Source of the DNA: a bacterium
Lineage (GTDB): Bacteria > Orphanbacterota > Orphanbacteria > Orphanbacterales > Orphanbacteraceae
Assembly (NCBI GenBank): GCA_025782575.1
Contig: JALGYY010000046.1
Location: 372,001-436,000, forward strand
DNA: 64,000 bases
Direction of reading: 5' to 3'
A program made the translations under genes and the position numbers. Positions within the stretch are counted from its first letter, which is position 1, and the number at the start of each line of letters is the position of its first letter. This document shows, piece by piece, positions 18,554 to 47,238 of this stretch. Below the pieces are notes generated by a model. The model did no database searches. It had not been told where the DNA came from and worked only from the letters and a program-made list of their open reading frames with translations.

Positions 18554-20892
18554 GCCGACTCCCGTTCCGGCGACCGGCCGAGCCGTGGCTCGTTCTGCTC
18601 TCTCTTGCCGCCATGCTGCTTGTTTTCTACTGGAAGAACCTTTTCCCGATTCCATTCGGCCAAACGTTTTTCTGGGAAGATTTCGTCTATCAGAACTACC
18701 CTTACCGCGCATTCCTGGCCGAGCAGCTCCGGCAAGGGGTATTCCCATTCTGGAATCCCTATCAGTTCGCGGGAATGCCCTACGCGGCCGACGTGCAGGC
18801 TGCCGCATTCTATCCTCCGAACGCCCTGCTCTCTCTTTTCGTCTTCGACGGTCGGCTGGATGCCCGATGGGTGGAACTTCTTGAAATATCCCACGCCCTT
18901 GCCGGGGGATTTCTGATCGCTCTTCTCGTCCGGTACCGAATGCGTTGCACTTACGCCGCAACACTCGCCGGCGCCGCCTGGTCGCTCTCCGGATTCTTTG
19001 TAGTAAGAATGATTCATGGAAATGTACTCTCCGTTGTAGCGTGGCTCCCACTGATCCTGCTTTTTTTCTTTATCTCCGTCGATCGAAGGTCGGTGGCGGC
19101 CGCTCTCCTCGGCGGCGTCGTCTTCGGCATGTCGATCCTCGGCGGCGCGCCACAATATTCTCTATTCCTGATGATGGTGCTCGGCGTGATCGCAATGTAC
19201 GAGGTGATTCGTCCACGTCAGGCGCGGACCGGTGCAGCAAGATTCCTGCCCCTCGCGCTACTCACCCTGCTCCTCATGATCGGCGTGGCGATATCAGCGA
19301 TTCAGTCGCTCCCGACCCAGGAGTTGACATCCCTCTCTCTTCGCTCGGAAATGCCGTATGACAAGTCGATCGAAGGGAGTATGCCCCCCGCCAGCCTGGC
19401 TACACTCCTGATGCCGAAACTCTTCGGCACAGCGGCCGGCTGGAAGACGAATGCCTACTTCGGGCCGGGCCAGTATTTTTATGCATGGGAGCTGATGGCG
19501 TACCCCGGCGTCGTGGTTCTACTGCTCGCCGGTCTCGCCCTTTTGTTTTCGACAAAAGAACATGGGGTCCTTCTCTTCGGTCTCCTTACACTCTTCGGTC
19601 TCCTTCTCGCCCTCGGCGGATATGGTCCTCTTCACTGGATCTTCTATCAGGTCCTTCCTGTATACGATAAATTCAGGATGCCCGGCCGGGCCATGCTGAT
19701 TGCGACCTTCGCAATTGTCATTCTCGCTGCCCGGGGAGCACAGATCCTCGGCAAACCGCCGCCGCGAAAGACAAAAAAGCATTTCCGCCGTCTGCTCGTT
19801 CTCTTCGCCGGCTTCCTGGTCGCTGGAATAATCGGCTACATGGTCGGTGCCGACTATGCCGCAAACCCACGCGCCGGGATGATCCCGCCTGGGGCTACGG
19901 CAAGGGTCTTTCTCATCTTTCTGGTCACGCTCGTCCTCGGCGCCATTCCCCTTGTTCGGTGGGCTCGAAGCAAACGGGGTCTGGGCGCGCCTGAAAGAGG
20001 CGTTTTGCTTCTTCTTGTCGTCGCCGAACTCTTCTTTCAGGGATACGGATTCAACGACGGTGTAAAGAGTGCGACAAGAAATCCCGATCCGGATTCATTC
20101 TACCGGGGGAAGTCAGAAGTAATTGATGTCATGAGACGAGAGGCGAAAGGCGAAAACTTCCGTGTCAAGAACCGTGCCCCGGAAGGGCACCTGCTCCTTC
20201 CGAGGAATCAGGGGAGCGTAAACCGACTGCGGAGCGTGGATGGCTACAATCAGCTCCGACTCCAGAGATACGAGGATCTCCAGACAGCGAAAAACATGTC
20301 GTTCCAGCGTATCATGGATCTGTTCGGGGTCCGCGTGTACACCTATCTAGACAAACGGTTGAACGCTCTCTCTCTGACAACGAATCCGACGGCGAGGCCT
20401 CGTGTCTATTTTGTCGGAGACGCGGTGTACGCAACCGGACTGGAAGCTTCTCTCGCCGTATTGCGAACTCCCGAATTCGATCCGGTTCGATCGGTTCTTC
20501 TTGCCGGTACAGGCGATCCGGTTTCAACCGGCGCGACAGGAGAGGCGACACTTCTTCATGCCGACGCCAACCGATTCGTCGTCGAAGTCGACTGCGACGG
20601 TCCCGGCTGGCTCGTGATGAACGAGGTGTACTATCCCGGCTGGACAGCTTATGTGGACGGGTCGCCCGCCGAAGTCCTGTCCGCGAACTACACTTTTCGG
20701 GCCACACCGGTCGGTTCCGGAAAGAGCATGATTGAATGGAGGTTCGAGTCGAAGTCGTTCCGGCTCGGCCGAGCGATCACGCTTGTTACACTCGGAGTCG
20801 TCTTGATCATGCTTCTCGTCATCCTGCCCCGCTTCGGTGACTCTCCGTCTGCCGCTTTCCGGGAGATCTGGTGGGGGGCGAACCGTGACTGA
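18550..20892 (+). CDS. YfhO-like polytopic membrane protein (GT-C fold), copy 1
   Basis: The 780-residue protein has about a dozen membrane helices and a C-terminal periplasmic domain with GWLVMNEVYYPGWTAYVDG, the hallmark of the YfhO family. YfhO-type proteins have GT-C topology and are implicated in adding polyprenyl-phosphate-linked sugars to envelope polymers. An acidic first periplasmic loop (FFWEDFVYQNYPYR) sits where GT-C enzymes keep their catalytic acids. The start is ATG 18550 in an ATGA overlap with the GT4. A paralogue of near-equal size lies at 34299. Confidence 0.82.
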   Translation: MSRLPFRRPAEPWLVLLSLAAMLLVFYWKNLFPIPFGQTFFWEDFVYQNYPYRAFLAEQLRQGVFPFWNPYQFAGMPYAADVQAAAFYPPNALLSLFVFDGRLDARWVELLEISHALAGGFLIALLVRYRMRCTYAATLAGAAWSLSGFFVVRMIHGNVLSVVAWLPLILLFFFISVDRRSVAAALLGGVVFGMSILGGAPQYSLFLMMVLGVIAMYEVIRPRQARTGAARFLPLALLTLLLMIGVAISAIQSLPTQELTSLSLRSEMPYDKSIEGSMPPASLATLLMPKLFGTAAGWKTNAYFGPGQYFYAWELMAYPGVVVLLLAGLALLFSTKEHGVLLFGLLTLFGLLLALGGYGPLHWIFYQVLPVYDKFRMPGRAMLIATFAIVILAARGAQILGKPPPRKTKKHFRRLLVLFAGFLVAGIIGYMVGADYAANPRAGMIPPGATARVFLIFLVTLVLGAIPLVRWARSKRGLGAPERGVLLLLVVAELFFQGYGFNDGVKSATRNPDPDSFYRGKSEVIDVMRREAKGENFRVKNRAPEGHLLLPRNQGSVNRLRSVDGYNQLRLQRYEDLQTAKNMSFQRIMDLFGVRVYTYLDKRLNALSLTTNPTARPRVYFVGDAVYATGLEASLAVLRTPEFDPVRSVLLAGTGDPVSTGATGEATLLHADANRFVVEVDCDGPGWLVMNEVYYPGWTAYVDGSPAEVLSANYTFRATPVGSGKSMIEWRFESKSFRLGRAITLVTLGVVLIMLLVILPRFGDSPSAAFREIWWGANRD

Positions 20893-21886
20893 GCCGGTCA
20901 AACGGATCATATCGACAGCGATCAAGGTGATCGTAAGTGCCGCACTACTATACTGGCTTCTCCGAGGGGGGATGCTGCAGAGAGCAGTAGAAGAGACCCG
21001 CGACAGATTCCACGCCGGTCCTTTCCTGCTCGGCCTTGCGGCGTTCGCGCTCAGCAACGTATTCGGGAGTATGCAATGGAATCTGCTCCTCCGGGCCCAG
21101 GGAATTCACATTCCCTTCAGGAGAGCGCTTTCTCTCTATTTTGTCGGGCTCTTCTTCTCCAACTTTCTGCCTGCCAATTTAGGCGGCGATGTTGTCAAGG
21201 TGGTCGACCTCCACAGGGACACGGGGAAAGGGAGTGGTGCCGTCGCCGCTACCCTCATGGATCGAGGGGCGGGACTAGCAATACTCGCGCTCATGGCAAC
21301 CGTCGCCGGCCTTATTTCTCGAGAGGCCTTCGGCGCTGAACCTTTCCTTTTGCTCCTCCCGGGGTTCCTGCTCTTCTTCCTTGCCGGCGGGGCGGCTATC
21401 ATGAGTAATCGCGTTGTAAAGCTACTTCAAAAAACCATGGCCATAATTCCCTTCCAGGCCGTTCGGAATGCCGCCGACTCAGTTCTCACCGCGCTTTTCC
21501 AATTTCGAAGCCGGAAGCGAGCCCTTCTGCTGGCGGTTCTCATGGCTATCCCGGTCCAGACGCTGCGGGTACTCGTCCATCTGTTCGCGGCTCGTAGCAT
21601 CGGCATCGATGCAGCAGCGGCACCTGCCGTTTATTTTTTCCTTTTCATCCCGATTGTCGCCGTTTTTATCGCCCTTCCGATTTCGATCAACGGCCTCGGT
21701 GTCAGGGAAGGGCTGGGCGTCTACTTCTATGGTCTCATAGGAATCGGCGATGAACTCGCCTTTTCAATTTCCTTCCTCGCTTATCTTATCGGCGTCGTTG
21801 TCAGCCTCATTGGAGGGCTCGTCTTCGTATTTCGTCCGACCCGGCGCCGCATGGCGGACTTGCCGCCCGAGGCGGAATCGAGCTAG
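20885..21886 (+). CDS. Flippase-like membrane protein (LPG synthase TM domain / UPF0104 family)
   Basis: The 333-residue protein consists almost entirely of membrane helices. It carries the family stretch FVGLFFSNFLPANLGGDVVK followed by GAVAATLMDRGAGL, and SINGLGVREGLGVYFY near the end. Members include the membrane half of MprF, which flips lysyl-phosphatidylglycerol, and AglD-associated proteins of glycan loci. In this setting it may move a lipid-linked intermediate across the inner membrane, but that is inference. The start is GTG 20885 after a GGTGGGGGG stretch, overlapping the YfhO-like gene by 8 bases. Confidence 0.8.
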   Translation: MTEPVKRIISTAIKVIVSAALLYWLLRGGMLQRAVEETRDRFHAGPFLLGLAAFALSNVFGSMQWNLLLRAQGIHIPFRRALSLYFVGLFFSNFLPANLGGDVVKVVDLHRDTGKGSGAVAATLMDRGAGLAILALMATVAGLISREAFGAEPFLLLLPGFLLFFLAGGAAIMSNRVVKLLQKTMAIIPFQAVRNAADSVLTALFQFRSRKRALLLAVLMAIPVQTLRVLVHLFAARSIGIDAAAAPAVYFFLFIPIVAVFIALPISINGLGVREGLGVYFYGLIGIGDELAFSISFLAYLIGVVVSLIGGLVFVFRPTRRRMADLPPEAESS

Positions 21887-21912: not shown

Positions 21913-24243
21913 GTGGATTCCATTTTGAGACAATCCGGTTCCGATCCCCGAAACACCAACGGGGAGAGGAGAGAGGATCGACTCGGCGGCGCGATCGTAT
22001 TTCTGTTCGTGCTGGCGATCTACTGGATCACGCTGGCACCGAGTGTGTCATTCTGGGATTCGGGGGAATTCATCGCCAGTTCTTACACGCTGGCCATTCC
22101 CCATCCTCCAGGTACGCCCCTCTATGTGATCCTCGGGCGTGTCTTCACTCTCCTCCCGATATTTTCGATCGCCGGCCGGGTCAATTTTCTGTCGGCCCTC
22201 CCGGCTGCGCTGTCGGCCTTTTTTCTCTACCACTCCCTACTCCTCATCGGGCGGCGGTTCACAAATCAAATATCGGATCCCATGCGCTCCCGTCTCTATC
22301 GGGCCGGGGCCGCAGCGGGTGCGCTCTTCGCCGCGTTCGGATCCACTACCTGGACGAACGCGATCGAATCGGAAGTGTATGCCCTCAGTAATCTGGTCAT
22401 CACCTTCTGCCTCTGGATTCTCCTCCGCTGGAGTCACAGGCGAAACGCCGGCAAAGACAGGCGCCCCCTTCTTCTTGTGGCCTACCTGCTCTCGCTCTCG
22501 ATCGGCATTCACCTCGGAACCTATCTCGCTCTCCCGGCCTTCGCTCTCCTGGTCCTCGCAGTGGACGGTCGGGCGTTTCTCGACCCTCGTTTTCTGGCGC
22601 TTTCGATACTGATCACACTTCTCGGCATCACCGTACATGCCTATCTGCCGATCCGCTCCACTTTGAATCCCGTCATCGATGAAGCGAATCCGGAGACAAT
22701 CGACGAAATGAAAGACTTCGTCCTCCGCAAACAGTACAAGCCGAGCAAACCGTGGATCCGTCAGGCAAGCTGGTCATTTCAAATCGGGATGTACTGGCGC
22801 TATTTCACGTCTCAGTTCGGTGGCCTGCTTCCCCTGCTCGGAATCGCGGGAGCGGTGGCGCATGGGATTCGTGACAGGCGTTCTTTCCCCTTGTACGCCC
22901 TTCTTTTTCTTATCACGAGTCTCTTTCTTGTCTTCTATATGAATTTTACCGATCATGAGGTTCGGGAAAGGGACTATTTCTTTGCGCCCTCTTTCTTCTT
23001 CTGGGGGGGATGGATGGGTGTGGGGGCCGCGGCGTTTATTGACACACTAAGGACCCGATTGCAGGTGAAAGACAGAACGACGGCAACGCTTGCTTTGATT
23101 GTGGTGCTCGCCCTTCCCGCTACGACACTGGCGACAAACTTTCACTCCCATGACCGGCGGGGGAACTTCATCGCCCGGGACTATGCGTGGAACATTCTGA
23201 CTACTCTCGAACCAGACGCGATTCTCTTTACAAATGGAGACAACGATACATTTCCCCTCTGGTATCTGCAGGAGGTCGAGCATGTGCGGAAAGATGTTCG
23301 AATCGTCAATCTGGCTTTGCTGAATACCAGCTGGTATATCTGGCAACTGAAACATCTCGAGCCCAAAATCTCTATAGCGTGGACTGACAAAGATATTCAG
23401 GAACTCAAGTATCTCAGACCGTTCCAGGATGCCGAAGGAAAAGTAATCTATCTGAACGACCTGGCGATCGGCCAGATTCTGCGTGTGGCCGGATCGACGA
23501 GGCCGGTCTACTTCGCCGTTACGATTTCCGATCTCCGCGGGCTCGATGAGGCGGGCTTGCTCGAACTGGAGGGTCTTGTCTTCCGAATGCACGATTCGCC
23601 GGTCGATCCGACGATCAACGTGGAAATCTGCGAAAAGAATCTATGGGAGGACTTCCGTTACACAGGGATCCTGGACGAGAACGGGCAGCTGATAGACGAG
23701 GTCTATCGTACTCGTCATCAAAAAGGTCTTATCACCAACTATTCAGGTGCCTACAGCCGGCTTGCCATTCACTATCGAAATCTGGGGCGATTTGATGACG
23801 CCATTCGAAATCTTAGGAGAGCCGGCGTGCTATCACCGTCGTACAGGCCCTACACTGCGCTGATGGGGCCGCTTCTGGTCGGTGCCAAGCGTTTTGATGA
23901 GGCGCTCCGGTTTTTCGGCGAACGAGTGGATGCCTCCCCCGACTCTGTCGCGTCTTACGTCGGGATCGCGTATATTCGAGAGATGCGAGGGGAGTGGGAA
24001 GCGGCCGAGCAGTGGTATCGGTCCGCGATAGGCGTGGCCCCTGAAAGCCGGGAAGCGTATGTCAGGCTTGCCCGCATGCTTGCACGGGAGAACGATATCA
24101 TCGGGGCGACCCAGGTTCTGGAGACTTGGCTCGCCATTGATCCGAATGATAAGAGTACGCATGTACAGTTGCAGGAACTCCGGCGCGGGGTCATCCCCGA
24201 CGATCAGAACGGAGAAGCGCGCCGGGTGGGAGGAGAGTCTTGA
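21913..24243 (+). CDS. DUF2723 membrane glycosyltransferase-like protein with C-terminal TPRs
   Basis: The 776-residue product begins with the DUF2723 signature: FWDSGEFIASSYTLAIPHPP and GTPLYVILGRVFTLLP, followed by about ten membrane helices. A periplasmic stretch comes next (LFTNGDNDTFPLWYLQEV). The last 180 residues are tetratricopeptide repeats, e.g. SRLAIHYRNLGRFDDAIRNL and AEQWYRSAIGVAPESREAYV. DUF2723 proteins have GT-C topology; human TMEM260, of this family, is a protein O-mannosyltransferase. The DSGE acidic motif sits in the first periplasmic loop, as in GT-C enzymes. I prefer GTG 21913 (GAGG upstream) over TTG 21898. Confidence 0.85.
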   Translation: MDSILRQSGSDPRNTNGERREDRLGGAIVFLFVLAIYWITLAPSVSFWDSGEFIASSYTLAIPHPPGTPLYVILGRVFTLLPIFSIAGRVNFLSALPAALSAFFLYHSLLLIGRRFTNQISDPMRSRLYRAGAAAGALFAAFGSTTWTNAIESEVYALSNLVITFCLWILLRWSHRRNAGKDRRPLLLVAYLLSLSIGIHLGTYLALPAFALLVLAVDGRAFLDPRFLALSILITLLGITVHAYLPIRSTLNPVIDEANPETIDEMKDFVLRKQYKPSKPWIRQASWSFQIGMYWRYFTSQFGGLLPLLGIAGAVAHGIRDRRSFPLYALLFLITSLFLVFYMNFTDHEVRERDYFFAPSFFFWGGWMGVGAAAFIDTLRTRLQVKDRTTATLALIVVLALPATTLATNFHSHDRRGNFIARDYAWNILTTLEPDAILFTNGDNDTFPLWYLQEVEHVRKDVRIVNLALLNTSWYIWQLKHLEPKISIAWTDKDIQELKYLRPFQDAEGKVIYLNDLAIGQILRVAGSTRPVYFAVTISDLRGLDEAGLLELEGLVFRMHDSPVDPTINVEICEKNLWEDFRYTGILDENGQLIDEVYRTRHQKGLITNYSGAYSRLAIHYRNLGRFDDAIRNLRRAGVLSPSYRPYTALMGPLLVGAKRFDEALRFFGERVDASPDSVASYVGIAYIREMRGEWEAAEQWYRSAIGVAPESREAYVRLARMLARENDIIGATQVLETWLAIDPNDKSTHVQLQELRRGVIPDDQNGEARRVGGES

Positions 24244-25190
24244 AAAAAGCGATCGTTACCGGTGCGGCCGGGTTTATCGGATCACATCTGTGTGAGTCTC
24301 TTCTCAACCTGGGATATCAGGTGGATGGCATCGACTCATTCACCGACTATTATGATCCGGCGTTGAAGGAGTCGAATATTTGCCATCTGAAAGAACAGAA
24401 TGCATTCCGTCTTCATCGCGCGGATTTGAACGATATTCCCCTTGAGCCTCTCCTCGACGGGACGGATATCGTTTTCCACCAGGCGGCGCAGGCGGGGGTC
24501 CGTTCCAGTTGGGGGGATGAGTTCGACCGCTATACCCGATGGAATATCATGGCTACACAGCGTTTGTTGGAGAAGGTGCGTCAGTATCCGGTTCGCCGGG
24601 TAGTGATCGCTTCATCTTCTTCGGTATATGGCGACACCACCGACCTCCCCGTAACAGAGCAGTCCGCCACGTGGCCCCACTCACCTTATGGGGTGACGAA
24701 ACTGGCCGCCGAGCACCTTGGCCGGCTCTACCGCAGGAACTTCGGCGTTCCGACTGTCGCCCTCCGCTACTTTACCGTTTACGGGCCCCGGCAGAGACCG
24801 GACATGGCTTTCCGGCGGCTGATTGAAGCAGCCGAACGGGGACTGCAGTTCGGGATTTACGGCACAGGCGAACAGAGCCGCGATTTCACTTACGTGCAGG
24901 ACACCGTCGATGCCAATCTGCTTGCTGCATCCGCCGAGGATCCTTCGGCAGTCTACAACGTCGGAGGCGGCGCGCGGATCAGCCTGAATGAATCCATTGA
25001 ACTGATCGAATCAATCACGGGTCACGAAATAAAGGTCGAAAGAACGGCACGGCAGAAGGGGGATGTGCGCGACACCTGGGCCGACACCTCCCGGGCGGAA
25101 CAGGAGCTGGGCTTTCGTCCCAAGATCGCCATCCGCGAAGGCCTCGAGAGAATGGTCGAGTGGTACCGCACCGGTCCAGGGGCCGCCTGA
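24240..25190 (+). CDS. NAD-dependent nucleotide-sugar epimerase/dehydratase
   Basis: The 316-residue extended short-chain dehydrogenase has the NAD-binding GAAGFIGSH at the N-terminus, the catalytic SSSSVYG serine and YGVTK Tyr/Lys pair, and TVYGPRQRPDMAF in the substrate region. It is closest in style to UDP-glucuronate or UDP-glucose 4-epimerases; the exact substrate is not fixed by sequence alone. The start is TTG 24240 after AGGAGAG, overlapping the preceding stop as TTGA. It would supply an activated sugar for the surrounding transferases. Confidence 0.88.
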   Translation: MKKAIVTGAAGFIGSHLCESLLNLGYQVDGIDSFTDYYDPALKESNICHLKEQNAFRLHRADLNDIPLEPLLDGTDIVFHQAAQAGVRSSWGDEFDRYTRWNIMATQRLLEKVRQYPVRRVVIASSSSVYGDTTDLPVTEQSATWPHSPYGVTKLAAEHLGRLYRRNFGVPTVALRYFTVYGPRQRPDMAFRRLIEAAERGLQFGIYGTGEQSRDFTYVQDTVDANLLAASAEDPSAVYNVGGGARISLNESIELIESITGHEIKVERTARQKGDVRDTWADTSRAEQELGFRPKIAIREGLERMVEWYRTGPGAA

Positions 25191-25205
25191 CGGGGGCGGG
25201 TGGAT

Positions 25206-26195
25206 ATGTCCGGATTAAAGCGAATTTCCATTGTGATTCCCGCCTGGCGGGCCGAGGAGACCATCAGCTCCGCAGTAAGCGCCAGCATCGCTCAGCAATG
25301 GGAAGGGGGGTCGATCGAGGTCCTGGTGGTAGACGACGGATCACCTGACCGAACTGCCGATCGGGCCGAGGCTGCCGGGGCGAGGGTGTTACGGCAAGGG
25401 AATGCCGGCCCCGCATCAGCCAGAAACAGAGGCTGGAAAGAGGCGCGGGGGGAATGGATTTTCTTCACCGATTCCGATTGTGCCCCTGAGCCGGACTGGG
25501 TCGCCACCCTTGCCCGGCATCTGGAAGATGACTCCGTCGGTGCAGCGGGAGGGAGTTATTCGGCCGCCAACGGTGACAGGACTCTTGCGGCGTGTATTCA
25601 GGCGGAAATCGAATATCGCCACAGCTCCATGAAAGGAGATGTGCGGTTTCTCGGCTCATTCAATCTCGCGATCAAGCGGACCCTGCTCGAGGAGACCGGC
25701 GGTTTCGATGAAAGTTACAGGGACGCAAGCGGCGAGGACAACGATCTCTCCTACCGGTTGCGTATCGCCGGTTACCGGCTCCGCTTCGATCCGGAGGCAC
25801 GTGTATCCCACATTCATCCCGTCCGTCTGGAACGCTATCTCAAAGAGCAGGCGCGGCACGGTTTCTGGAGGATGAAGCTCTACTCAGCCCATCCATCTCG
25901 GATCTCGGGGGACGACTATAGCGGTCCTGTCGATTTTCTGGAACCACCGGTCGCCCTGGCGCTTCTCTGTCTCGCCCCTCTCGCGGGCCTTCCCTTTGTC
26001 CCGTCCATTATCAGGGTCGGAGGGTTTTTCCTCGTCTTCCTGGCGGGATGGATGACTTGGCGGCTCGTCCGCTTTACGGGTGATCCCCGTCTCTTCTGGT
26101 TCTTTCCTGTTCGCCTCCTGCGTGCATTCGCTCGCGGTCTCGGGTTGGCGGCCGGTGTCTGGCGGTTCTGGATTCTTCGGAGAGTGATAAAATGA
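25206..26195 (+). CDS. Glycosyltransferase family 2 with C-terminal membrane helices
   Basis: The 329-residue inverting GT-A transferase has VVDDGSPDRT, NAGPASARNRG and the metal-binding FFTDSDCAPEPDWV. GGFDESYRDASGEDNDLSYR forms the catalytic-base region. One or two hydrophobic segments follow near the C-terminus (ALALLCLAPLAGLPFV and a second). The DXD residues are present. ATG 25206 is used; GTG 25200 in the same frame is equally possible and adds two residues. The end overlaps the next GT2 by ATGA. Confidence 0.88.
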   Translation: MSGLKRISIVIPAWRAEETISSAVSASIAQQWEGGSIEVLVVDDGSPDRTADRAEAAGARVLRQGNAGPASARNRGWKEARGEWIFFTDSDCAPEPDWVATLARHLEDDSVGAAGGSYSAANGDRTLAACIQAEIEYRHSSMKGDVRFLGSFNLAIKRTLLEETGGFDESYRDASGEDNDLSYRLRIAGYRLRFDPEARVSHIHPVRLERYLKEQARHGFWRMKLYSAHPSRISGDDYSGPVDFLEPPVALALLCLAPLAGLPFVPSIIRVGGFFLVFLAGWMTWRLVRFTGDPRLFWFFPVRLLRAFARGLGLAAGVWRFWILRRVIK

Positions 26196-26920
26196 GTCAG
26201 AAGCAGAGCGATGTCGCGATTCTCATCCCGGCCTATAACGAAGAAACGACACTGTCAGATCTGATTGACAGACTACGAAGTGAACTTCCGAACTGCGGCA
26301 TCATCGTTATGGATGATGGATCGGTCGATCAGACTGCGGAAGTCGCCCGATCAGCCGGCGCGGTGGTGCTACGCCTTCCGTTCAACCTGGGAATTGGCGC
26401 GGCCATGCAGACCGGTTATCGGTATGCCAAACGAAAAGGGTATAGGATTGCGGTACAGGTCGATGGGGATGGCCAGCATCCGCCCGAGGAGATCCATCGT
26501 CTGATCGAGCCGATCAGGCAAGGGGCCGATCTAGTTATCGGTTGCCGTTTTCTCGGTCGTGGGGATTTCAAGTCTCCACTCATGAGGCGGCTCGGGATGC
26601 TCTTCTTCTCGTTCACGATCTCCACACTTGTCGGGCGCCGGTTTCACGACACCACCAGTGGATTCCGTGCAGCCGGTCGCTCCGTAATCGAGTACTATTC
26701 GGACCACTATCCGAGTGACTATCCTGAGCCGGAAGCGATTCTGCTCCTCTGCCGGGCAGGATTTGACGTGCGCGAAGTGCCGGCGAAGATTGTCGAGCGG
26801 GGAGGGGGGCACTCTTCCATTACGGCGATCCGCGGGGTTTACTACCTGTTCAAGGTTTTTCTGGCGATCGCCATGGGGACACTTCGCCCGGTTCGCCGTC
26901 CGGGGAGAGAAAACGAATGA
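26192..26920 (+). CDS. DPM-type polyprenyl-phosphate glycosyltransferase (GT2)
   Basis: The 242-residue product has the dolichol-phosphate-mannose-synthase style core: LIPAYNEETTLSDLI, VMDDGSVDQT, then FNLGIGAAMQTGYRYA and the metal site VDGDGQHPPEEI. It lacks the pair of C-terminal membrane helices of GtrB-like enzymes. Such enzymes charge a polyprenyl phosphate with one sugar, giving the donor for GT-C transferases. The partner DUF2304 gene directly downstream (ATGA overlap) commonly accompanies this short GT2 form. Confidence 0.9.
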   Translation: MSQKQSDVAILIPAYNEETTLSDLIDRLRSELPNCGIIVMDDGSVDQTAEVARSAGAVVLRLPFNLGIGAAMQTGYRYAKRKGYRIAVQVDGDGQHPPEEIHRLIEPIRQGADLVIGCRFLGRGDFKSPLMRRLGMLFFSFTISTLVGRRFHDTTSGFRAAGRSVIEYYSDHYPSDYPEPEAILLLCRAGFDVREVPAKIVERGGGHSSITAIRGVYYLFKVFLAIAMGTLRPVRRPGRENE

Positions 26921-27291
26921 TGATGATCGATCGTGTTCAGCTGGTTTCCATTGTCGGATCGCTCTCGCTCCTCGTTCTGATCCTCGAACTCATTCGCCGA
27001 GGGAAGCTGGCGGAACGTTACAGCCTTCTCTGGATCGTCACGGGGGCTGTCCTGCTCGGCCTCTCGATCTGGCGGGGCCTGCTCGATAACTTTGCAGTCG
27101 CTCTCGGAATATTCTATCCCCCATCCGCCCTCTTTCTCGTAGGCCTCGTATTCGTGTTGCTTCTCATTCTTCATTTCTCCGTCATCGTCTCCCGGCTCTC
27201 GAGGAGGAGCAGACTGCTTGCCCAGGAAGTAGCCCTTCTGAAAGAAGCGCTCCGAGAAATCCAGGAGGGAATGGGGGAAGAAATTGACTGA
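26917..27291 (+). CDS. DUF2304 small membrane protein
   Basis: The 124-residue protein has three hydrophobic segments (SIVGSLSLLVLILELIRRG; ERYSLLWIVTGAVLLGLSIW; ALFLVGLVFVLLLILHFSV) and ends in a charged, probably coiled-coil tail. The pattern is that of DUF2304, found beside DPM-type GT2 genes. There it probably anchors or assists the otherwise soluble GT2; that role is inference. The start overlaps the GT2 stop as ATGA and the end overlaps the next gene by 8 bases. Confidence 0.8.
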   Translation: MMMIDRVQLVSIVGSLSLLVLILELIRRGKLAERYSLLWIVTGAVLLGLSIWRGLLDNFAVALGIFYPPSALFLVGLVFVLLLILHFSVIVSRLSRRSRLLAQEVALLKEALREIQEGMGEEID

Positions 27292-29440
27292 TAAAAAACC
27301 CGCCTCCCGACCGGGAAAGAGAGTGCTCACTCCTGCACTGTTTGCCGGTCTCCTCGGCGTATTACTGCTCGCCGGGTGGCTGGTACGATTCCACGATCTC
27401 GACGCGGACCCCCCCCCGGCCCTCAGCTGGAGCCAGGGCATTTACACAGACGGCGCGGTGGTCGTCCACGACGCGAGAAACCTCGCGCTCCATGGCCAGT
27501 GGATCATCGATTATTGCGAAGATCTCGCCCTCTTCCCGCTCTCCAACCTGCTCGCCGCGCCGACATTTCGCATATTCGGGGTCGGCCGGTCCCAGGCCGC
27601 CATCCCGAACACGGTACTCGGCATCCTCGCCATCCTGCTCTTTTCACTCGGCCTCGTTCGATCAGACGGCCGCGGCCGAACTCTCCTCTGGGTCTCACTC
27701 GCCTGTTTCAACTATTTTCTAATCATGATTCATCGGGTGCCGTTCGCGGAGCCGGCGATGGTCTTCCTGATGGCGGCCGGGTTTCTATGTTACGTAATTG
27801 CTCTTCGACAAAGTCCGTTCTTCATCCTCGCCGGATTCCTCGCCGGCGCGGCGCCGTTGTTCGGCAAAATGCATGCTGTCTATTTCCCGGCTGTCCTGCT
27901 GCTTACAATCATGTTAATCCGCGAGAAGCGCCCGGATCGCATCAGGGATCTCCGTTTTGCAAGCCTCGGTATACTGACAGCGCTCATCCTCTGGCTCGCA
28001 TTCATCTATCTGCCCCACAGTGATTACATATTTGCCCACGTTACATATGAATCCGTTTCCAAGCACGATCCGGGGCCTATTGGGTTCCTGAGGGAGTTTG
28101 CCCAAAATCTGATCGCCATGGGCTCCTACACGAACCTGTTCGACAAGATGCCGATCATCGCACTACTCGGATTTCTTGGTGTGGCGGGTGTTCTACGAAA
28201 AGGGAGACGCGCACTCCGGGAAGAGTCCCCCGTCACCATCTTTCTGCTCACCTGGCTTCTCGTTTCATGGGTGTTTCTTTCAGCTGTTAAACTGCCGGCC
28301 CCCCGCTATATGATCGCTCTCCTGTTTCCCTTTCTATACTTTGCCGCCCAAACCCTCGGCGCTCTTTTTAAAGGGGCCCGGCTTCGCTGGACCGCTTCCC
28401 GATCATGGGCGGGATCCCTGGCAGGTGCCGCCGCTCTCTTCTTCGTTCTCTATCAACCGATCATCGCCACCGGGACGAAGCAGGTTCAATATCTGAAAGT
28501 ATCGGGCTGGGGTCGCGGTATTTATGACGCGTTCATCCGGACGAACGCCTATTCGGAGCTTGTCGCTCTCTGTCTCGTTGAAACTCTCGTTCTTGTCGCC
28601 ATTGTTCTGTTGCCTTTTTTTGTTTTCAAGCCGAAGGAAATCCGGCTCGGGTTCACCCCTGGTCGCGGGCGACTCTTCGCCATCATCCTGCTGTCGGCCT
28701 CTTTCTTTATGAATATGGGAAACTGGACTTACTGGTCCGTCACAAACACCCATTTTCTGAGAGATGCATCTCTTGATGTTGCTGAGTGGACCGCACCAGG
28801 AGCCCGGCTCATGGGGTCGTTCGCACCTGCACTCGGGCTGGACAACGATCTGCCGGTTTTTCCCTATTTCGGCGGGCTTGGCGATCAGGATCCCTTTCGA
28901 AAGTACGGTATCAGTCACATCGTCATATCGAGCAAAGGGGATCACAATCTGATCCGTGATCAATATCCCGAGATTTTTGAGAAGATGGTGAAGGTCGCCT
29001 CCTATCCGCTCCTCGGTCGCTATACTGCACAGATGTCGGTCTATCGGTTGCCGTCAAACGACTCAGAGGGAATCATACATGCCTATCGAGGGAGTGAGCT
29101 CGAGCAGGGAGTCGACGCCGGAATTCGGGGTGAGTGGAGAGAGGCGCTCTCCCATCTGGCATCTTTTCTCGAACAGGCTCCCGGCCACGCTGATGCGTAC
29201 TATCTGATGGGTTTCATGTACAATCAGCTGGGAGATCATGAGAGTGGCGCACAGGCGATGCTGCGGGCGATCGAACTACGCCCCGAACGGCCTCGGTATT
29301 GGGAGATGCTCGGCAGCCTCTATGCCGAGGGGGGGCGGATGAGAGAAGCACGCAGCTATATGGAGCGTGCGTATCGCCTGAATCCACGGGATGAGGAGAT
29401 TCGGGCCAAGATTGAGCGGCTCGGCGGAGTAAGCCACTAG
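27284..29440 (+). CDS. GT39/ArnT-like membrane glycosyltransferase with C-terminal TPRs
   Basis: The 718-residue GT-C type protein has an N-terminal helix and a periplasmic loop with acidic residues (YTDGAVVVHDARNLALHG). About ten further helices follow, one flanked by FVFKPKEIRLGF, then a periplasmic domain. The last 90 residues are TPRs (DAYYLMGFMYNQLGDHESGA; EMLGSLYAEGGRMREARSYM). PMT/ArnT family enzymes move sugar from polyprenyl phosphate to a lipid or protein. The TPR tail parallels that of the DUF2723 gene upstream. The start is TTG 27284 behind GGGGGAAG. Confidence 0.84.
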   Translation: MTDKKPASRPGKRVLTPALFAGLLGVLLLAGWLVRFHDLDADPPPALSWSQGIYTDGAVVVHDARNLALHGQWIIDYCEDLALFPLSNLLAAPTFRIFGVGRSQAAIPNTVLGILAILLFSLGLVRSDGRGRTLLWVSLACFNYFLIMIHRVPFAEPAMVFLMAAGFLCYVIALRQSPFFILAGFLAGAAPLFGKMHAVYFPAVLLLTIMLIREKRPDRIRDLRFASLGILTALILWLAFIYLPHSDYIFAHVTYESVSKHDPGPIGFLREFAQNLIAMGSYTNLFDKMPIIALLGFLGVAGVLRKGRRALREESPVTIFLLTWLLVSWVFLSAVKLPAPRYMIALLFPFLYFAAQTLGALFKGARLRWTASRSWAGSLAGAAALFFVLYQPIIATGTKQVQYLKVSGWGRGIYDAFIRTNAYSELVALCLVETLVLVAIVLLPFFVFKPKEIRLGFTPGRGRLFAIILLSASFFMNMGNWTYWSVTNTHFLRDASLDVAEWTAPGARLMGSFAPALGLDNDLPVFPYFGGLGDQDPFRKYGISHIVISSKGDHNLIRDQYPEIFEKMVKVASYPLLGRYTAQMSVYRLPSNDSEGIIHAYRGSELEQGVDAGIRGEWREALSHLASFLEQAPGHADAYYLMGFMYNQLGDHESGAQAMLRAIELRPERPRYWEMLGSLYAEGGRMREARSYMERAYRLNPRDEEIRAKIERLGGVSH

Positions 29441-29473
29441 CACAGCAACCACCGCAGACAGGATTGATGGAAG

Positions 29474-30466
29474 ATGGCCACCGACGTTGAGAGGAAACCG
29501 TTAAATTCAACAGAGGCGGGTGGTGAGAACCCTATCGACCTCTCGATTGTCGTGCCCCTGTTCAACGAAGCGGAGTCCCTGCCGGAACTGAAAGCGCGAA
29601 TCGTCGGGCAGTTTGATAAACATGGCTGGGCCGGCGAGATTCTGTTTGTGGATGACGGCTCGCAGGACGGGTCGTTCGGTGTCATCGAGAATCTCGCCAG
29701 GGAAGACGCGCGCGTCCGATCGATTAAATTCCGTAAGAATTTCGGGAAGGCAGCCGCCCTTTCGGCTGGATTCCTGGAGGCCCGGGGGGGAATCGTCATC
29801 ACAATGGATGCCGATCTTCAGGACGATCCGTCGGAAATCCCCCAGCTGGTCGCCAAGATCGAGGAGGGATTCGATGTCGTTTCCGGATGGAAGAAGAAGC
29901 GGAAAGACCCACTCTCCAAGACCTTGCCGTCCAAGCTCTTTAATGCCGTAACCGCTTTTTTTACAGGCATTCCCATCCATGACTTCAACTGCGGTCTCAA
30001 GGCCTATCGCCATGAGGTCATTGAAGAACTCGATCTCTACGGCGAACTCCATCGCTATGTGCCGGCGCTAGCCGGCTGGAAGGGCTTTCGGATTACCGAG
30101 ATCGAAGTGACCCACCACGCCCGTCTTCACGGAGAGTCAAAATACGGCGTCTCCCGGTTTCTCGCCGGGTTTCTCGATCTGCTCACCGTCATGCTTCTGA
30201 CCCGCTTCACGCTGAAGCCGCTCCATCTTTTCGGCGCGATCGGAGGTGTAGTCGGGTTTCTGGGGTTTCTGATCAGCCTCTATCTGGTTTCCCTCAAAAT
30301 CCGTTACGGCGACATTCAGGGACGCCAGCCCCTGCTCGCACTCGGTATTCTACTCATCACGACCGGAATCCAGTTTATTTCGACGGGCCTTCTCGCTGAG
30401 ATGCTCGCTTCGCAGAGGACGAGCCGCGAACGGGGCTACTCGATCGAAAGGAAGCTGGGCTGTTGA
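29474..30466 (+). CDS. GtrB-like polyprenyl-phosphate glycosyltransferase with two C-terminal membrane helices
   Basis: The 330-residue product has IVVPLFNEAESLPEL, FVDDGSQDGS, the metal site MDADLQDDPSEI, and the HARLHGESKYGVSR motif typical of GtrB, ArnC and related enzymes. Two C-terminal membrane helices follow (LHLFGAIGGVVGFLGFLISL and a second). It loads undecaprenyl phosphate with a hexose at the inner face of the membrane. All signature residues are present. A 33-base gap separates it from the previous gene, one of the longest in this operon. Confidence 0.92.
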   Translation: MATDVERKPLNSTEAGGENPIDLSIVVPLFNEAESLPELKARIVGQFDKHGWAGEILFVDDGSQDGSFGVIENLAREDARVRSIKFRKNFGKAAALSAGFLEARGGIVITMDADLQDDPSEIPQLVAKIEEGFDVVSGWKKKRKDPLSKTLPSKLFNAVTAFFTGIPIHDFNCGLKAYRHEVIEELDLYGELHRYVPALAGWKGFRITEIEVTHHARLHGESKYGVSRFLAGFLDLLTVMLLTRFTLKPLHLFGAIGGVVGFLGFLISLYLVSLKIRYGDIQGRQPLLALGILLITTGIQFISTGLLAEMLASQRTSRERGYSIERKLGC

Positions 30467-32067
30467 GTCGGCCACGCCGGAAACGAGATCAATCCCCCTT
30501 GAAGAAGAGTCGACGGAGGGCGGACCGATCGAAGACCCGCTTTGACTGGAAACGCTGGCTTCCGTTCGCCTTCACTGCTCTCTTTCTCATTCTCGCGGTT
30601 CTACGATTCGATGGTCGACTCTCATTGAGTGGTGATAATGCCCAGTTTCTGATTCTGGGACACTCGATAGCCCAAGGGGAGGGGATGTCCCATATCAACG
30701 AGTCCAACCCCACCCCCCATACCAAGTACCCTCCCGTATTCCCGGTCTTGCTTGCCGGAGTTCAAAAACTCTTTCCCTTCAGTTTCATTGCTCCCAAAGT
30801 ACTGGTACTCCTTTTCGGAGCGGCGGGAATCCTTATTCTCTCGAGGCTGGTCCTTGATCGGGTGCCGCTCGCCGTCGGTGTGCCCGCGCTCCTTCTCTCC
30901 GCAGTCAATCCGGAGATGGTCCACTTTTCCAGTCTGATCCTCTCTGAACTCCCGTACTTTTTCCTCTCCATGCTGGCGATCTGGTTCGCCTTCAAGTTTG
31001 AGAAAGATGAGAGCAGAACCGGGCTACTGGTAGCTGCTGTTCTCCTTTCGGTCGCCGCTTACTACACGAGAACAATCGGAATCGCCCTCGTCATGGCAAT
31101 GGTCGCCTGGCGTTTTTTCAGGCGGGACTTCAAACGGGCCGCCCTTATTTTTGCGGCATTCATACTTCTCGCTGCTCCTTGGGGGATACGGAATCGAAGC
31201 GTCGGCGGCACGGACTACCTGACCCAGTTTCTGAGCGTAAATCCGTATGAGCCGGACAAAGGGAGACTCCGCCCGATCGAGCTCATTACTGTTCGCGTAA
31301 AAGAAAACCTGAAGAAGTACGCCACGCTGGAGGTCGGGAGGGGCATTCTGGCTCGTTATCAGACCCGGCCCCCTGAAAATGGAAGGCTCGCCTGGATCAC
31401 CCTTTCCATACTGGTAACGGTCATCGCCGGAATGGGGGTTGCGTATCGGGCCATTCGGGAGAAGGGGGGGGTCCTCGAGATCTATCTGCTCTTCTACCTG
31501 GGAATCTGTCTACTCTGGCCGGAGGTCTGGGCGAGCCTGCGGTTTCTTGTCCCGGTGGTGCCGCTCCTCTTCCTGTTCTTGCTCCGGGCGCTCGCCGACC
31601 TGGGAGAGGCGCTTCGATTCCGGGGCGCTCGTTGGATTCCTGCTCTGGCTACGTTGCTTCTGCTCATTCCCGCCGTACAATCGACGACCCCCTTCATCAC
31701 AGGAAGGGCTGTCCGCCCCGCCAACTGGAGAAACTACTTCGCCGCCGCGGACTGGATCAGAGAGAACACGCCGGAATCATCGGTCGTACTCTGCCGCAAA
31801 CCTTATCTCTTTTATCTGTACTCCCGGCGGAAATCCGATTCCTATCTCTGGTCGTACGACTCCAAGAAGGTATACGAACAGATGGCCGGGGACGGAGTCA
31901 CTCATGTCGTTGTTTCTCAACTCAGCGGAACCGAAATGAAGTACCTCATACCCATGATTAACGATTACTATGGGGAATTTGAACAACTCGTACAAATCGA
32001 AAATCCGAGCACCTATGTCATGCGCTGGCACCCACCGGGGGACAATGCGCGGGAGACCGGACGTTGA
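30463..32067 (+). CDS. GT39/ArnT-like membrane glycosyltransferase
   Basis: The 534-residue polytopic protein has a basic, disordered N-terminus, then a helix (LPFAFTALFLILAVLRF) and an acidic periplasmic loop (SGDNAQFLILGHSIAQGEG). About ten more helices and a short periplasmic tail follow. Its layout is that of the PMT/ArnT/GT39 clan, and it lacks the TPR extension of the enzyme at 27284. The start is TTG 30463 in a TTGA overlap with the GtrB-like gene, which is the expected donor-making partner. Confidence 0.82.
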   Translation: MSRPRRKRDQSPLKKSRRRADRSKTRFDWKRWLPFAFTALFLILAVLRFDGRLSLSGDNAQFLILGHSIAQGEGMSHINESNPTPHTKYPPVFPVLLAGVQKLFPFSFIAPKVLVLLFGAAGILILSRLVLDRVPLAVGVPALLLSAVNPEMVHFSSLILSELPYFFLSMLAIWFAFKFEKDESRTGLLVAAVLLSVAAYYTRTIGIALVMAMVAWRFFRRDFKRAALIFAAFILLAAPWGIRNRSVGGTDYLTQFLSVNPYEPDKGRLRPIELITVRVKENLKKYATLEVGRGILARYQTRPPENGRLAWITLSILVTVIAGMGVAYRAIREKGGVLEIYLLFYLGICLLWPEVWASLRFLVPVVPLLFLFLLRALADLGEALRFRGARWIPALATLLLLIPAVQSTTPFITGRAVRPANWRNYFAAADWIRENTPESSVVLCRKPYLFYLYSRRKSDSYLWSYDSKKVYEQMAGDGVTHVVVSQLSGTEMKYLIPMINDYYGEFEQLVQIENPSTYVMRWHPPGDNARETGR

Positions 32068-33182
32068 ACCTTCTTGTTACGTCGATCTACTATCCTCCCC
32101 GTCTCGGTGGGATCGAAAACCACGTCTATTACCTCTGTCGGGGGCTGGTCAAGGAGGGGCTGACCGTTTCGGTCGTCACATCGCGCACCGAGCCGGGCTC
32201 GCCCGCTCAAGAAAGAGAGGATCGCTATTCCGTCGATCGCATCCCGCTGCCGGGGCGCAATCCGATCTGGTGGATGGTGAACGCCTTTCTATCCCTTCCC
32301 GCGACGATTCGAGCGGGCCGGAAAGCGGATCTGATTCATGCCCATACGTTTCAATCCGTCCTTCCCGTGCTCCCGGTAAAACTCTTTCGCAGAATCCCTC
32401 TCGTTGTCACGATCCACTCCTCTCACTTCCTTCGCATGGTGAAGAAAATCTATTGGCGGGTGGTCTTTCGCGCACTTCTTGCCCCGGCCGATCTCATACT
32501 CGCCACCAGCGTGGAACTGGCCGATGCCTGCAGACTCGTCGCACCGCGATCGCGAGTTCGGGAAATCGTAAACGGCATCGATACCGATCTATTTCAATCG
32601 GTCCCGCCTTCCATTCCGAAGAGGGAGGGTCGGGCCATCCTGGTAACGACACGAAGGCTCGTGAAGAAAAACGGAGTGAGGTACCTGATCGACGGAATGG
32701 CTGACATCATAAAGAGAGTGCCGTGCGATCTCTATCTCGTCGGCATCGGTCCCGAGCGGGCCGATCTCGATGAGCGGGTCGCTCGCCACGGCATCGGTGA
32801 ATTCATTCACTTCCTTGGCGGAGTGGACAATCAGAAACTACCCCCCATTCTCTCCTCAGCCGACGCCGTTGTAATTCCCTCACTTGTGGAAGCGACCTCT
32901 CTCTCGGCGCTCGAAGCGATGTCCTGTCAGCGGCCGATGGCGGTCTCCCGAGTGGGCGGCCTGCCCGAGATCATCGATGAATCGTGCGGGACCCTGTTCG
33001 AGAGCGGCAACCCCGGCGATCTCGCTGAGAAGATCGTCAAGCTGCTTCAGGAGTCCGCTGATACGCGGAAAACGATGGGGAGGGAGGGGCGAAATCGGGT
33101 GGCGGGAAAGTGGAGTGTCGACGCACTCGTCGACCGGCACCGGACACACTATCGAAAACTGCTGGAGGGGGCGGGATCTTGA
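32064..33182 (+). CDS. Glycosyltransferase family 4
   Basis: The 372-residue GT-B enzyme has YYPPRLGGIENHVYYLCRGL at the N-terminus and the donor-site element VEATSLSALEAMSCQRPMAV with the EX7E spacing kept. GGLPEIIDESCGTLFESG follows. The start is TTG 32064 in a TTGA overlap. Acceptor and sugar cannot be assigned. It precedes the WecB epimerase, so a ManNAc-containing product is a possibility only. Confidence 0.9.
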   Translation: MNLLVTSIYYPPRLGGIENHVYYLCRGLVKEGLTVSVVTSRTEPGSPAQEREDRYSVDRIPLPGRNPIWWMVNAFLSLPATIRAGRKADLIHAHTFQSVLPVLPVKLFRRIPLVVTIHSSHFLRMVKKIYWRVVFRALLAPADLILATSVELADACRLVAPRSRVREIVNGIDTDLFQSVPPSIPKREGRAILVTTRRLVKKNGVRYLIDGMADIIKRVPCDLYLVGIGPERADLDERVARHGIGEFIHFLGGVDNQKLPPILSSADAVVIPSLVEATSLSALEAMSCQRPMAVSRVGGLPEIIDESCGTLFESGNPGDLAEKIVKLLQESADTRKTMGREGRNRVAGKWSVDALVDRHRTHYRKLLEGAGS

Positions 33183-34309
33183 ATTCGAGACGAAAAGTCG
33201 CCGTCGTAATCGGGACAAGGCCCGAGGCGATCAAGATGGCGCCGCTTGTACTCGCTCTTCGAAAGCACGCGGACAAACTGGAAACCATCACCATCCTCAC
33301 AGCGCAGCACCGCAAAATGGCGGATGATGTTCTCGCTCTCTTCGGCATCGTGCCCGATCATGACCTGGATATCATGACACACGGGCAGTCCCTGTTTCAG
33401 ACTACCGCCCGGCTCATCACCAGGCTTCAGGAAGTGTATGTGAGAGAGAAGCCGGATATGGTTCTTGTTCAGGGGGACACGACAACCACGTTCGTCGGAG
33501 CCCTTGCCGCTCATTATCTGCGTATTCCCGTGGGACATGTCGAGGCGGGCCTCCGGACGAGGGACAAACACAACCCGTTTCCGGAGGAGATGAATCGCCG
33601 GATTACATCCTGTCTCGCCGACCTTCACTTTCCCCCGACCGATACGGCGCGGGATGCTTTGCTCGCCGAGGGAGTCGATCCGGCCACGGTCCATGTCACG
33701 GGGAACACGGTAATCGACGCGCTCTTTCATGTGCTTGGCCGGAAGACGGATCAGGATGCCCTCCTACCCGACGGGCCGGATCCCGATCGTCGCTGGATCG
33801 TCGTCACTTCTCACAGGCGCGAAAACTGGGGCCCGCCGTTGGAATCGATATGCGAAGCCCTTCTGGAACTCCGGGATAAATATGACGATGTAGAGGTGGT
33901 CTACCCTGTCCACCCGAACCCTCGCGTGCGGGAGACGACCGACATCCTGCTGAAGGGGAAGGAGCGCATCACACTCATCGAGCCGCTCGATTATCTCCGG
34001 TTCGTCCATCTCATGAACGCCGCGCATCTGCTGATTACTGATTCGGGAGGCGTCCAGGAAGAGGCGCCTTCGCTCGGCAAGCCCGTACTCGTCATTCGCA
34101 GAAAGACGGAGCGCCCGGAGGCGGTAACCGCGGGAACGGTCAAGCTTGTCGGGACCGAGCAGGCTGACATCGTCAGAGAAGCATCCGCACTTCTTGATTC
34201 GGATAGCGCCTACCAGAAAATGACGAGACGGCACAATCCCTACGGCGATGGACGGGCCTGCCCGCGAATCGTACAGTCTATTCTAAGCGGGTGGAATCTT
34301 GAAGGGTAA
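33179..34309 (+). CDS. wecB: UDP-N-acetylglucosamine 2-epimerase (non-hydrolysing), copy 1
   Basis: The 376-residue enzyme interconverts UDP-GlcNAc and UDP-ManNAc. Diagnostic stretches are IGTRPEAIKMAPLVLAL, VQGDTTTTFVGALAA, HVEAGLRTRDKHNPFPEE and TDSGGVQEEAPSLGKPVL. The length is normal. I chose TTG 33179 because it gives a TTGA overlap with the GT4 and begins just before the conserved strand; the longer frame to 33110 lies inside the GT4 gene. No UDP-ManNAc dehydrogenase is in the window, so ManNAc itself may be the product used. Confidence 0.94.
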   Translation: MNSRRKVAVVIGTRPEAIKMAPLVLALRKHADKLETITILTAQHRKMADDVLALFGIVPDHDLDIMTHGQSLFQTTARLITRLQEVYVREKPDMVLVQGDTTTTFVGALAAHYLRIPVGHVEAGLRTRDKHNPFPEEMNRRITSCLADLHFPPTDTARDALLAEGVDPATVHVTGNTVIDALFHVLGRKTDQDALLPDGPDPDRRWIVVTSHRRENWGPPLESICEALLELRDKYDDVEVVYPVHPNPRVRETTDILLKGKERITLIEPLDYLRFVHLMNAAHLLITDSGGVQEEAPSLGKPVLVIRRKTERPEAVTAGTVKLVGTEQADIVREASALLDSDSAYQKMTRRHNPYGDGRACPRIVQSILSGWNLEG

Positions 34310-43702: not shown

Positions 43703-43752
43703 TAGGAACGGCGGAGGTTATGGCCCTGCAACGACATACGCGACTAGTGACC

Positions 43753-43781
43753 TTGACACCTCTCTGGTGCCTGTGTACCTT
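43753..43781 (+). promoter_or_regulatory. Candidate sigma-70 promoter for the export operon
   Basis: A perfect TTGACA (43753-43758) is followed after 17 bases by TACCTT (43776-43781), a weak -10. Transcription would start about 43788, leaving a leader of roughly 54 bases before ATG 43842. It lies in the 139-base gap after the regulator gene. Confidence 0.4.
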
Positions 43782-43841
43782 GATTCGTACCGTTCCGGGC
43801 GTCGATGGGGTACGCCCTCAATCAACGGGGGGGGGCATCGG

Positions 43842-44810: not shown

Positions 44811-44828
44811 ACGGGAACTATCGATCTG

Positions 44829-46523: not shown

Positions 46524-46526
46524 GGG

Positions 46527-47216: not shown

Positions 47217-47238
47217 TCGATCGCTCGATTTCTCTGTC

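Follow-up and report, generated by a model that had tools for sequence, protein, structure and literature searches.

A conserved, probably glycan-building operon with a TMEM260-family protein and a terminal PorZ-like gene, possibly linked to type IX secretion outside Bacteroidota

Introduction

In two oral Bacteroidota, the glycans that anchor the cargo of the type IX secretion system (T9SS) have been characterised (PMC7468200). In Porphyromonas gingivalis, PorZ binds the anionic lipopolysaccharide (A-LPS) and delivers it to PorU (PMC8545088), and VimA, a protein of the TIGR03019 family, is believed to attach an amino acid to the linking sugar once the amine has been uncovered by the CE4 deacetylase VimE (PMC7468200). 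T9SS outside Bacteroidota was suggested earlier for other phyla of the Fibrobacterota-Chlorobiota-Bacteroidota (FCB) group (PMC11285876). Here we describe a 17-gene operon of an uncultivated FCB-group bacterium (genome G000), which contains a gene for a TMEM260-like protein and ends in a gene for a PorZ-like protein. The window, i.e. the whole stretch of DNA analysed, comprises 64,000 nucleotides (assembly GCA_025782575.1, contig JALGYY010000046.1, positions 372,001 to 436,000).

Two further kinds of described systems are relevant. In multi-component transmembrane glycosylation, YfhO moves GlcNAc from its polyprenyl carrier onto a polymer (PMC8035078). The tetratricopeptide repeats (TPRs) of TMEM260 and TMTC are thought to recruit Ig-like substrates (PMC11292533). 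In Bacteroidota, the O-glycan core begins with mannose, and the transferase is still unknown (PMC12871550). In the literature searched, no paper was found on the acceptors of bacterial DUF2723 enzymes, the family to which TMEM260 belongs. An earlier note on the same DNA, made from the sequence alone, had proposed that two TPR-bearing proteins of the operon with a glycosyltransferase C (GT-C) fold might be a bacterial counterpart of TMEM260/TMTC O-mannosylation. Our analysis points in another direction: we give about an even chance to the reading that the operon is a glycan-building region and that its product is the glycan anchor of T9SS cargo.

Results

A tightly packed operon ends in a PorZ-like gene

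No two neighbours among the 17 genes of the operon (17435-41958, Table 1) are more than 33 bp apart, and some overlap; a 263-bp gap closes the operon after position 41958. Because of this packing, a single transcription unit is plausible. Proteins are referred to below by the first nucleotide of their genes. The operon encodes five GT-C proteins (18565, 21913, 27284, 30463, 34299) and three DPM-type (dolichyl-phosphate mannose synthase-type) lipid-sugar synthases (26192, 29474, 36655). All genes named by the earlier note, including the three synthases in one operon, were found where it had placed them. It had not mentioned the two YfhO-family proteins (18565, 34299), the third, PMT_2-like GT-C protein (30463), the DUF2304 protein (26917), or the likeness of the last gene product to PorZ.

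This last protein (39583) has Reg_prop matches followed by a tail with a YPNP...G motif, i.e. a propeller with a T9SS-type C-terminal beta-sandwich, and its best NCBIfam family is T9SS PorZ. PorZ was also the best family for the homologues at the same place of the locus in three genomes of other lineages (G340, G075, G215; 5e-21 to 3e-37), and relatives of the propeller score 75-128 bits on the model. In all seven genomes that represent the host phylum, the genome-best PorZ match was the propeller of the operon, with runners-up that were lower and mostly matched in the tail only; in one of them, a draft of 830 contigs (G005), the best match is an 805-aa protein alone on its contig. A profile of seven sequences matched the solved PorZ structure 5m11 at 1.6e-30 in one colinear stretch that runs from the propeller into the C-terminal domain (5m11 residues 423-741). 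The earlier note had regarded the secreted beta-propeller at the end of the operon as a possible substrate of glycosylation. The protein is indeed there, but it is not an obvious substrate and is rather a PorZ-like candidate for a glycan-delivery factor.

The T9SS genes were surveyed in the same seven genomes. Homologues of Sov and of the C25 peptidase were present in 7/7, and each genome encoded 100-148 proteins with the tail of a T9SS C-terminal domain (CTD), the host reaching 148. In the host, Sov/SprA scored 534 bits (cut-off 200) and PorU 557 bits (cut-off 420), and the gene directly after PorU belonged to the PorV/PorQ family (181 bits, cut-off 90). The PorU pair (L308:1812-7348, G000:C21 ~140-146 kb), Sov/SprA (C21:304-310 kb) and the window all lie on the same contig.

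The gene order is kept across genera and partly across lineages

The order of the whole block was kept in G002, G003 and G004, and that of the first eight genes in G001, where the contig ends. Gene by gene, other genera of the family have the same arrangement, and other lineages have part of it, which is far beyond chance. A core consisting of GT2, DPM synthase, DUF2304, GTC2 (our name for the 27284-29440 protein and its relatives) and DPM synthase, and further on DPM synthase, BacTransf and propeller, was found in G340, G075 and G215 and in part in G279 (contig end), with identities of single genes down to ~20-30%. The phosphoglycosyltransferase (PGT) 'LDE' catalytic motif of the 37389-39593 fusion protein is lost in every aligned orthologue.

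The DUF2723 gene is separable from GTC2: just the host phylum and loci of the G340/L042 and L078 type have it within the block. Elsewhere it is accompanied by genes for a GT4, a flippase-like protein, an epimerase and a 29474-like synthase; in 25 such loci (B-type), these were near DUF2723 in 24, 12, 18 and 17 cases, respectively. In Rhodothermia, DUF2723 of the same clade as the window protein (see below) is encoded shortly downstream of LptF/LptG (L106, L112 and other loci), which suggests a link of DUF2723 to lipopolysaccharide in that class too. The placement of GT2 synthases next to GT-C proteins fits the logic of multi-component transmembrane glycosylation (PMC8035078).

The DUF2723 protein belongs to the TMEM260 family, but not to the TMEM260 clade

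The 21913-24243 protein matches PF11028, now named TMEM260-like, with 154 bits (gathering score 24.2), and has TPRs at residues ~618-753. Human TMEM260 (PDB 9rql) was matched at E 9e-28 over residues 28-487. Nine residues (D49, E52, H64, W147, E154, V155, Y156, H200, R248) are invariant in an alignment of 52 relatives. D49, E52, H64 and E154 align to human D52, E55, H67 and E144, and W147 and V155 are also present in the human protein, which has F, Q and S opposite Y156, H200 and R248. The structure model (pLDDT 92, pTM 0.90) combines a membrane core with a TPR superhelix; its fold matches include PglB, ALG12 and ArnT. TMEM260 9rql was not among the PDB fold matches listed for the model (library to 2026-04-08), and a fold search against viral structures was uninformative. 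The first external loop (EL1), which carries the DSGE motif, is free of Lys and Arg, as expected for a loop outside the cytoplasm.

The host genome has six PF11028 genes. With human TMEM260 as query (residues 26-481, read from the PDB alignment), two of the paralogues scored higher than the window protein (C2:818k and C21:38k, 121 and 115 bits, versus 89.5). In a tree of 127 DUF2723 cores and human TMEM260, the window protein was found among ~100 sequences with a (F)WD.GEF signature (support 1.0), a clade which takes in all sequences from records named Bacteroidales or Rhodothermales and leaves the human protein outside. Human TMEM260 fell into a group of eight with GD..EL sequences like those at C2:818k and C21:38k (support 0.89; the deeper nodes are weak). 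By its sequence, the window protein thus lies outside the TMEM260 clade proper, in a separate FCB 'WDSGEF' clade. The proposed TMEM260 counterpart therefore stands as far as family kinship and the aligned D, E, H and E residues are concerned, but not at the level of the clade.

Some genes of the GD..EL type are found beside genes for TPR-bearing GT-C proteins and away from polysaccharide clusters. In one case, a TMEM260-clade DUF2723 gene overlaps a gene for a PMT_2 GT-C protein with TPRs (L128:8441-12219, G000:C2 ~515-519 kb), and L177 has an orthologous pair with no adjoining polysaccharide genes. In another (L130:6336-10462, similarly L171 and L176), a gene for a GT-C-like TPR protein and a TMEM260-clade DUF2723 gene lie convergently on opposite strands. 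Judged by sequence and context, these paralogue pairs, and not the pair in the window, are candidates for the better leads towards a bacterial TMEM260-like protein glycosylation. Two other observations concern the family. A type I phosphodiesterase gene (PF01663) adjoins DUF2723 in both clades (L042:12350-14011, L129:7487-8902), and a secreted protein (L131:9596-10927) combines the soluble TNGDND.. part of DUF2723 with repeats and does not contain the membrane core.

The second TPR-bearing GT-C protein resembles ArnT

The 27284-29440 protein has no Pfam GT-C match itself, and its TPRs are at residues 616-708. Among 27 relatives, 19 match PMT_2 and 6 match PMT; none come from the phylum of G012. 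The model (pLDDT 90) had its best fold match in ArnT (5f15), followed by ALG12 and oligosaccharyltransferases (OSTs), with Pmt4 lower. D42, D56 (in the TDGA motif), R151, R341 and G511 are invariant in the 27 aligned sequences. A GT-C fold and TPRs outside the cytoplasm, the latter a point on which the earlier note had let its proposal depend, are thus predicted for both 21913 and 27284.

Protein O-glycosylation appears improbable

The two proteins could be protein O-glycosyltransferases that take a sugar from the DPM-type donors and place it on Ser/Thr residues of folded exported proteins rich in beta structure; the TPRs would then recognise the substrate, as has been suggested for TMEM260/TMTC (PMC11292533). 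This alternative draws on the homology to TMEM260, whose EL1 and EV(Y/F) residues are shared, on the extracytoplasmic C-terminal TPRs of both proteins, on the presence of donor synthases within the operon, and on the occurrence of the protein-acting OSTs and Pmt4 among the Foldseek matches.

In 163 predicted exported proteins from ~0.86 Mb of the host genome, however, the D-S/T-[AILVMT] signature was not enriched (1.03x expectation). A Bacteroidales positive control gave 2.25x (z 10) in exported and 0.93 in cytoplasmic proteins, indicating that the pipeline detects the known Bacteroidota O-glycosylation system (PMC12871550) and that this system was not found in the host. A tripeptide scan of host exported proteins (loci L197-L236 of G000 and the window) showed weak enrichments around S/T, led by R-S/T-I (67 versus 30 expected), which is raised less strongly in cytoplasmic proteins too, and D-S/T-L, which is mildly enriched in exported proteins only (87 versus 56 expected; cytoplasmic 43 versus 42). 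IPT domains, the acceptors expected from a direct analogy to TMEM260, did not track DUF2723 (10/24 positive versus 13/36 negative genomes, p=0.79) and were absent from four of the seven phylum genomes, and direct O-mannosylation of IPT domains was rejected for this reason; the same idea for FN3 domains was set aside, the FN3 gene of the window being outside the operon (see below).

The placement of 21913 in the wrong DUF2723 clade, that of GTC2 outside the TMTC family, and the polysaccharide neighbourhood kept across lineages also argue against protein O-glycosylation. The motif and IPT tests leave room for a fold-directed, motif-free modification, and we therefore retain this alternative, as an improbable one. 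Of the O-mannosylation proposed earlier, the family assignment survives; clade, substrate link and context do not agree with it.

The adjacent operon has genes for polysaccharide polymerisation and export

A second run of genes (42222-57043) encodes a regulator, an export protein, a polysaccharide co-polymerase (PCP) with tyrosine autokinase, two DPM-like GT2 proteins, a FemAB-type protein, Wzy, DegT, a GT2, a deacetylase, a GT4 and a 2-epimerase. It thus holds, at the family level only, the combination of a VimA-family FemAB protein and a CE4 deacetylase. Further on, after three GT4 genes on the minus strand, follows a gene for a protein with FN3/purple-acid-phosphatase-N repeats, which runs off the end of the window (61186-63999). 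The earlier note had pointed to this giant FN3 protein as a nearby substrate; it is present, but 19 kb off, behind the minus-strand genes and outside the operon.

These genes bring in a second alternative, an ordinary exopolysaccharide (EPS) or capsule locus in which the EPS repeat is decorated by the GT-C enzymes, and in which the PorZ-like propeller binds glycans at the surface and plays no part in T9SS anchoring. The downstream set of Poly_export, Wzz, tyrosine autokinase, Wzy, deacetylase and many GT4/GT2 genes, several of them closest to exosortase-EPS families, is what such a locus would contain, and the sub-threshold PorZ score agrees with it. EPS loci, however, usually vary between species, whereas members of the family share this block gene by gene. 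Moreover, in several lineages the block invariably ends in the PorZ-like gene, and PorU, Sov and more than 100 CTD proteins are encoded in the host. We regard an ordinary EPS locus as rather unlikely, though clearly less so than protein O-glycosylation.

Table 1. Genes of the operon (17435-41958) and selected genes of the adjacent run, all within the window
Product	Coordinates	Strand	Evidence
GT4 glycosyltransferase, first gene of the operon	17435..18553	+	PF00534 2e-40; near DUF2723 in 24/25 B-type loci
YfhO-family GT-C membrane protein (match in C-terminal part)	18565..20892	+	PF09586 1.3e-10; conserved synteny
LPG_synthase_TM/flippase-like membrane protein, candidate flippase	20837..21886	+	PF03706 8e-35; TIGR00374 above cut-off
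DUF2723 (TMEM260-like, CAZy GT117-type) GT-C enzyme, C-terminal TPR, WDSGEF clade	21913..24243	+	PF11028 4e-45; PDB 9rql 9e-28
NAD-dependent nucleotide-sugar epimerase/dehydratase	24240..25190	+	PF01370 9e-56
GT2 glycosyltransferase	25200..26195	+	PF00535 5e-28
DPM-type polyprenyl-P-sugar synthase	26192..26920	+	PF00535 8e-26; nearest NCBIfam PpgS NF058614 3e-31, below cut-off
DUF2304 small membrane partner, between 26192 and 27284	26917..27291	+	PF10066 2e-25; order kept in other lineages
ArnT/PMT-like GT-C protein, C-terminal TPRs (GTC2)	27284..29440	+	fold: ArnT 5f15 E 1.3e-7; relatives match PMT_2
ArnC/GtrB-like undecaprenyl-phosphate-sugar synthase, C-terminal transmembrane helices	29474..30466	+	PF00535 9e-30; NF007986 6e-61, below cut-off
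Third PMT_2-like GT-C protein, without TPR	30463..32067	+	PF13231 5e-5, just under cut-off; 11 hydrophobic segments
GT4 glycosyltransferase	32064..33182	+	PF00534 4e-29
UDP-GlcNAc 2-epimerase WecB	33170..34309	+	TIGR00236 above cut-off
Second YfhO-family GT-C protein, coupled to 36655 synthase	34299..36662	+	PF09586 9e-15; order kept in G340, G279
Soluble DPM1-type synthase	36655..37392	+	PF00535 1e-27; 57-81% identity in relatives having the block
GT2 + polyprenyl glycosylphosphotransferase-like fusion (BacTransf), PGT 'LDE' motif degenerate	37389..39593	+	PF00535, PF13727, PF02397; alignment
Secreted PorZ-like protein: beta-propellers + C-terminal T9SS-type beta-sandwich	39583..41958	+	NF052228 8.6e-25, below cut-off
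Polysaccharide export protein, start of export/EPS genes	43680..44810	+	PF02563; TIGR03027 below cut-off
PCP/Wzz + tyrosine autokinase	44829..47216	+	PF13807; TIGR01007 above cut-off
FemAB-type aminoacyltransferase, family also matched by VimA	49120..50145	+	TIGR03019 322 bits, cut-off 260
Wzy/O-antigen ligase-like	50139..51575	+	PF04932 7e-21; TIGR03097 below cut-off
Polysaccharide deacetylase, broad class of VimE	53868..54824	+	PF01522 1e-23

Discussion

An anchor glycan for T9SS cargo is the simplest model that joins the GT2/GT-C logic, the PorZ-PorU precedent and the VimA/VimE families. According to this model, the three DPM-type synthases would load single sugars onto a lipid carrier in the cytoplasm, which we take to be undecaprenyl phosphate. 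The flippase-like protein (20837) and the small membrane protein (26917) may help to present the lipid-linked sugars outside, and the five GT-C proteins would transfer them in the periplasm, presumably with catalysis on that side of the membrane. The main acceptor would most likely be a lipid-linked or a growing surface glycan, assembled by means of the GT4/GT2 enzymes of this operon and of the adjacent polymerase/export operon, and this glycan would probably fill the role of the A-LPS of Porphyromonas. The PorZ-like protein would carry it to the PorU sortase, which would join it to T9SS cargo at the C-terminus. In the periplasm, the TPRs of 21913 and 27284 may position partner proteins or the acceptor.

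Several points weigh against an anchor glycan. The propeller falls short of the cut-off of the PorZ model (87.3 bits versus 260), generic CTD proteins also score on this model, and sensor propellers of the BT4663 type outscore PorZ in the PDB profile search. From the Wbp set (WbpA, WbpB, WbpE, WbpD), just a DegT aminotransferase was seen among the polysaccharide genes scanned, WbpA, WbpB and WbpD being missing from these (the rest of the genome was not searched). Exosortase (PEP-CTERM) EPS loci typically contain the downstream FemAB, Wzy and export families as well, and the phosphoglycosyltransferase-like domain of the 37389-39593 protein appears, from the alignment, catalytically degenerate.

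More broadly, and only tentatively, we suggest that in several uncultivated FCB lineages outside Bacteroidota a vertically kept operon is dedicated to making the T9SS glycan anchor and hands it over via a terminal PorZ-like protein, with a TMEM260-family protein and a TPR-bearing GT-C protein as periplasmic glycan-building steps. If so, the TMEM260 family would be tied to protein anchoring rather than to direct O-mannosylation. One conserved operon with a PorZ-like end, in a phylum with PorU, Sov and more than 100 CTD proteins, would allow the anchor pathway to be read from a single locus. The operon context is also relevant to the question of which acceptors bacterial DUF2723 enzymes use. That DUF2723 falls into two clades is of help in selecting candidates for the Bacteroidota O-glycan transferase (PMC12871550), and for bacterial TMEM260-like O-mannosylation the better candidates would be the paralogues that adjoin TPR-bearing GT-C genes at other loci.

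Comparison with known systems

The locus shares features with several described systems. It resembles the XrtA/PEP-CTERM exosortase EPS locus in its FemAB protein, which is above the TIGR03019 cut-off, and in relatives of TIGR03027, TIGR03018, TIGR03097 and TIGR03088 in the adjacent operon; PorZ/T9SS genes are present instead of an exosortase, no gene for which was identified among the genes examined.

As in the CsbB/GtcA/YfhO and ArnC/ArnT systems, a GT2 undecaprenyl-phosphate-sugar synthase, a small membrane partner or flippase and a GT-C protein are encoded side by side, and the two YfhO-family proteins add to the likeness with CsbB/GtcA/YfhO. In contrast to these systems, the operon has five GT-C proteins (two of them with TPRs), three synthases and a terminal PorZ-like gene; a GtrA-type flippase was not found in it.

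Like TMTC1-4 (CAZy GT105), the 27284 protein begins with a GT-C half and ends in TPRs that lie outside the cytoplasm. Unlike them, it has TDGA in EL1 instead of the conserved DD and ArnT as its best fold match, and none of the 27 relatives matched the TMTC family, so that the TMTC counterpart proposed earlier was abandoned. The 21913 protein has in common with human TMEM260 (CAZy GT117) the family, the GT-C core, the invariant D..E, HPPG and EV(Y/F) residues and a C-terminal extracytoplasmic part of the TPR type. It differs in belonging to the WDSGEF clade, in having H200 and R248, which the human protein does not have, and in being encoded within a glycan operon.

With the A-LPS/PorZ/PorU and Wbp/Vim systems of P. 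gingivalis, the host shares a PorZ-like protein, PorU, a PorV-family protein, Sov, CTD cargo, a VimA-family FemAB protein, a deacetylase, DegT and a 2-epimerase. Apart from the sub-threshold PorZ score and the Wbp genes not seen in the scan mentioned above, it differs from P. gingivalis in that the glycan genes and the PorZ-like gene are clustered in one 40-kb region, and in that this region is found outside Bacteroidota.

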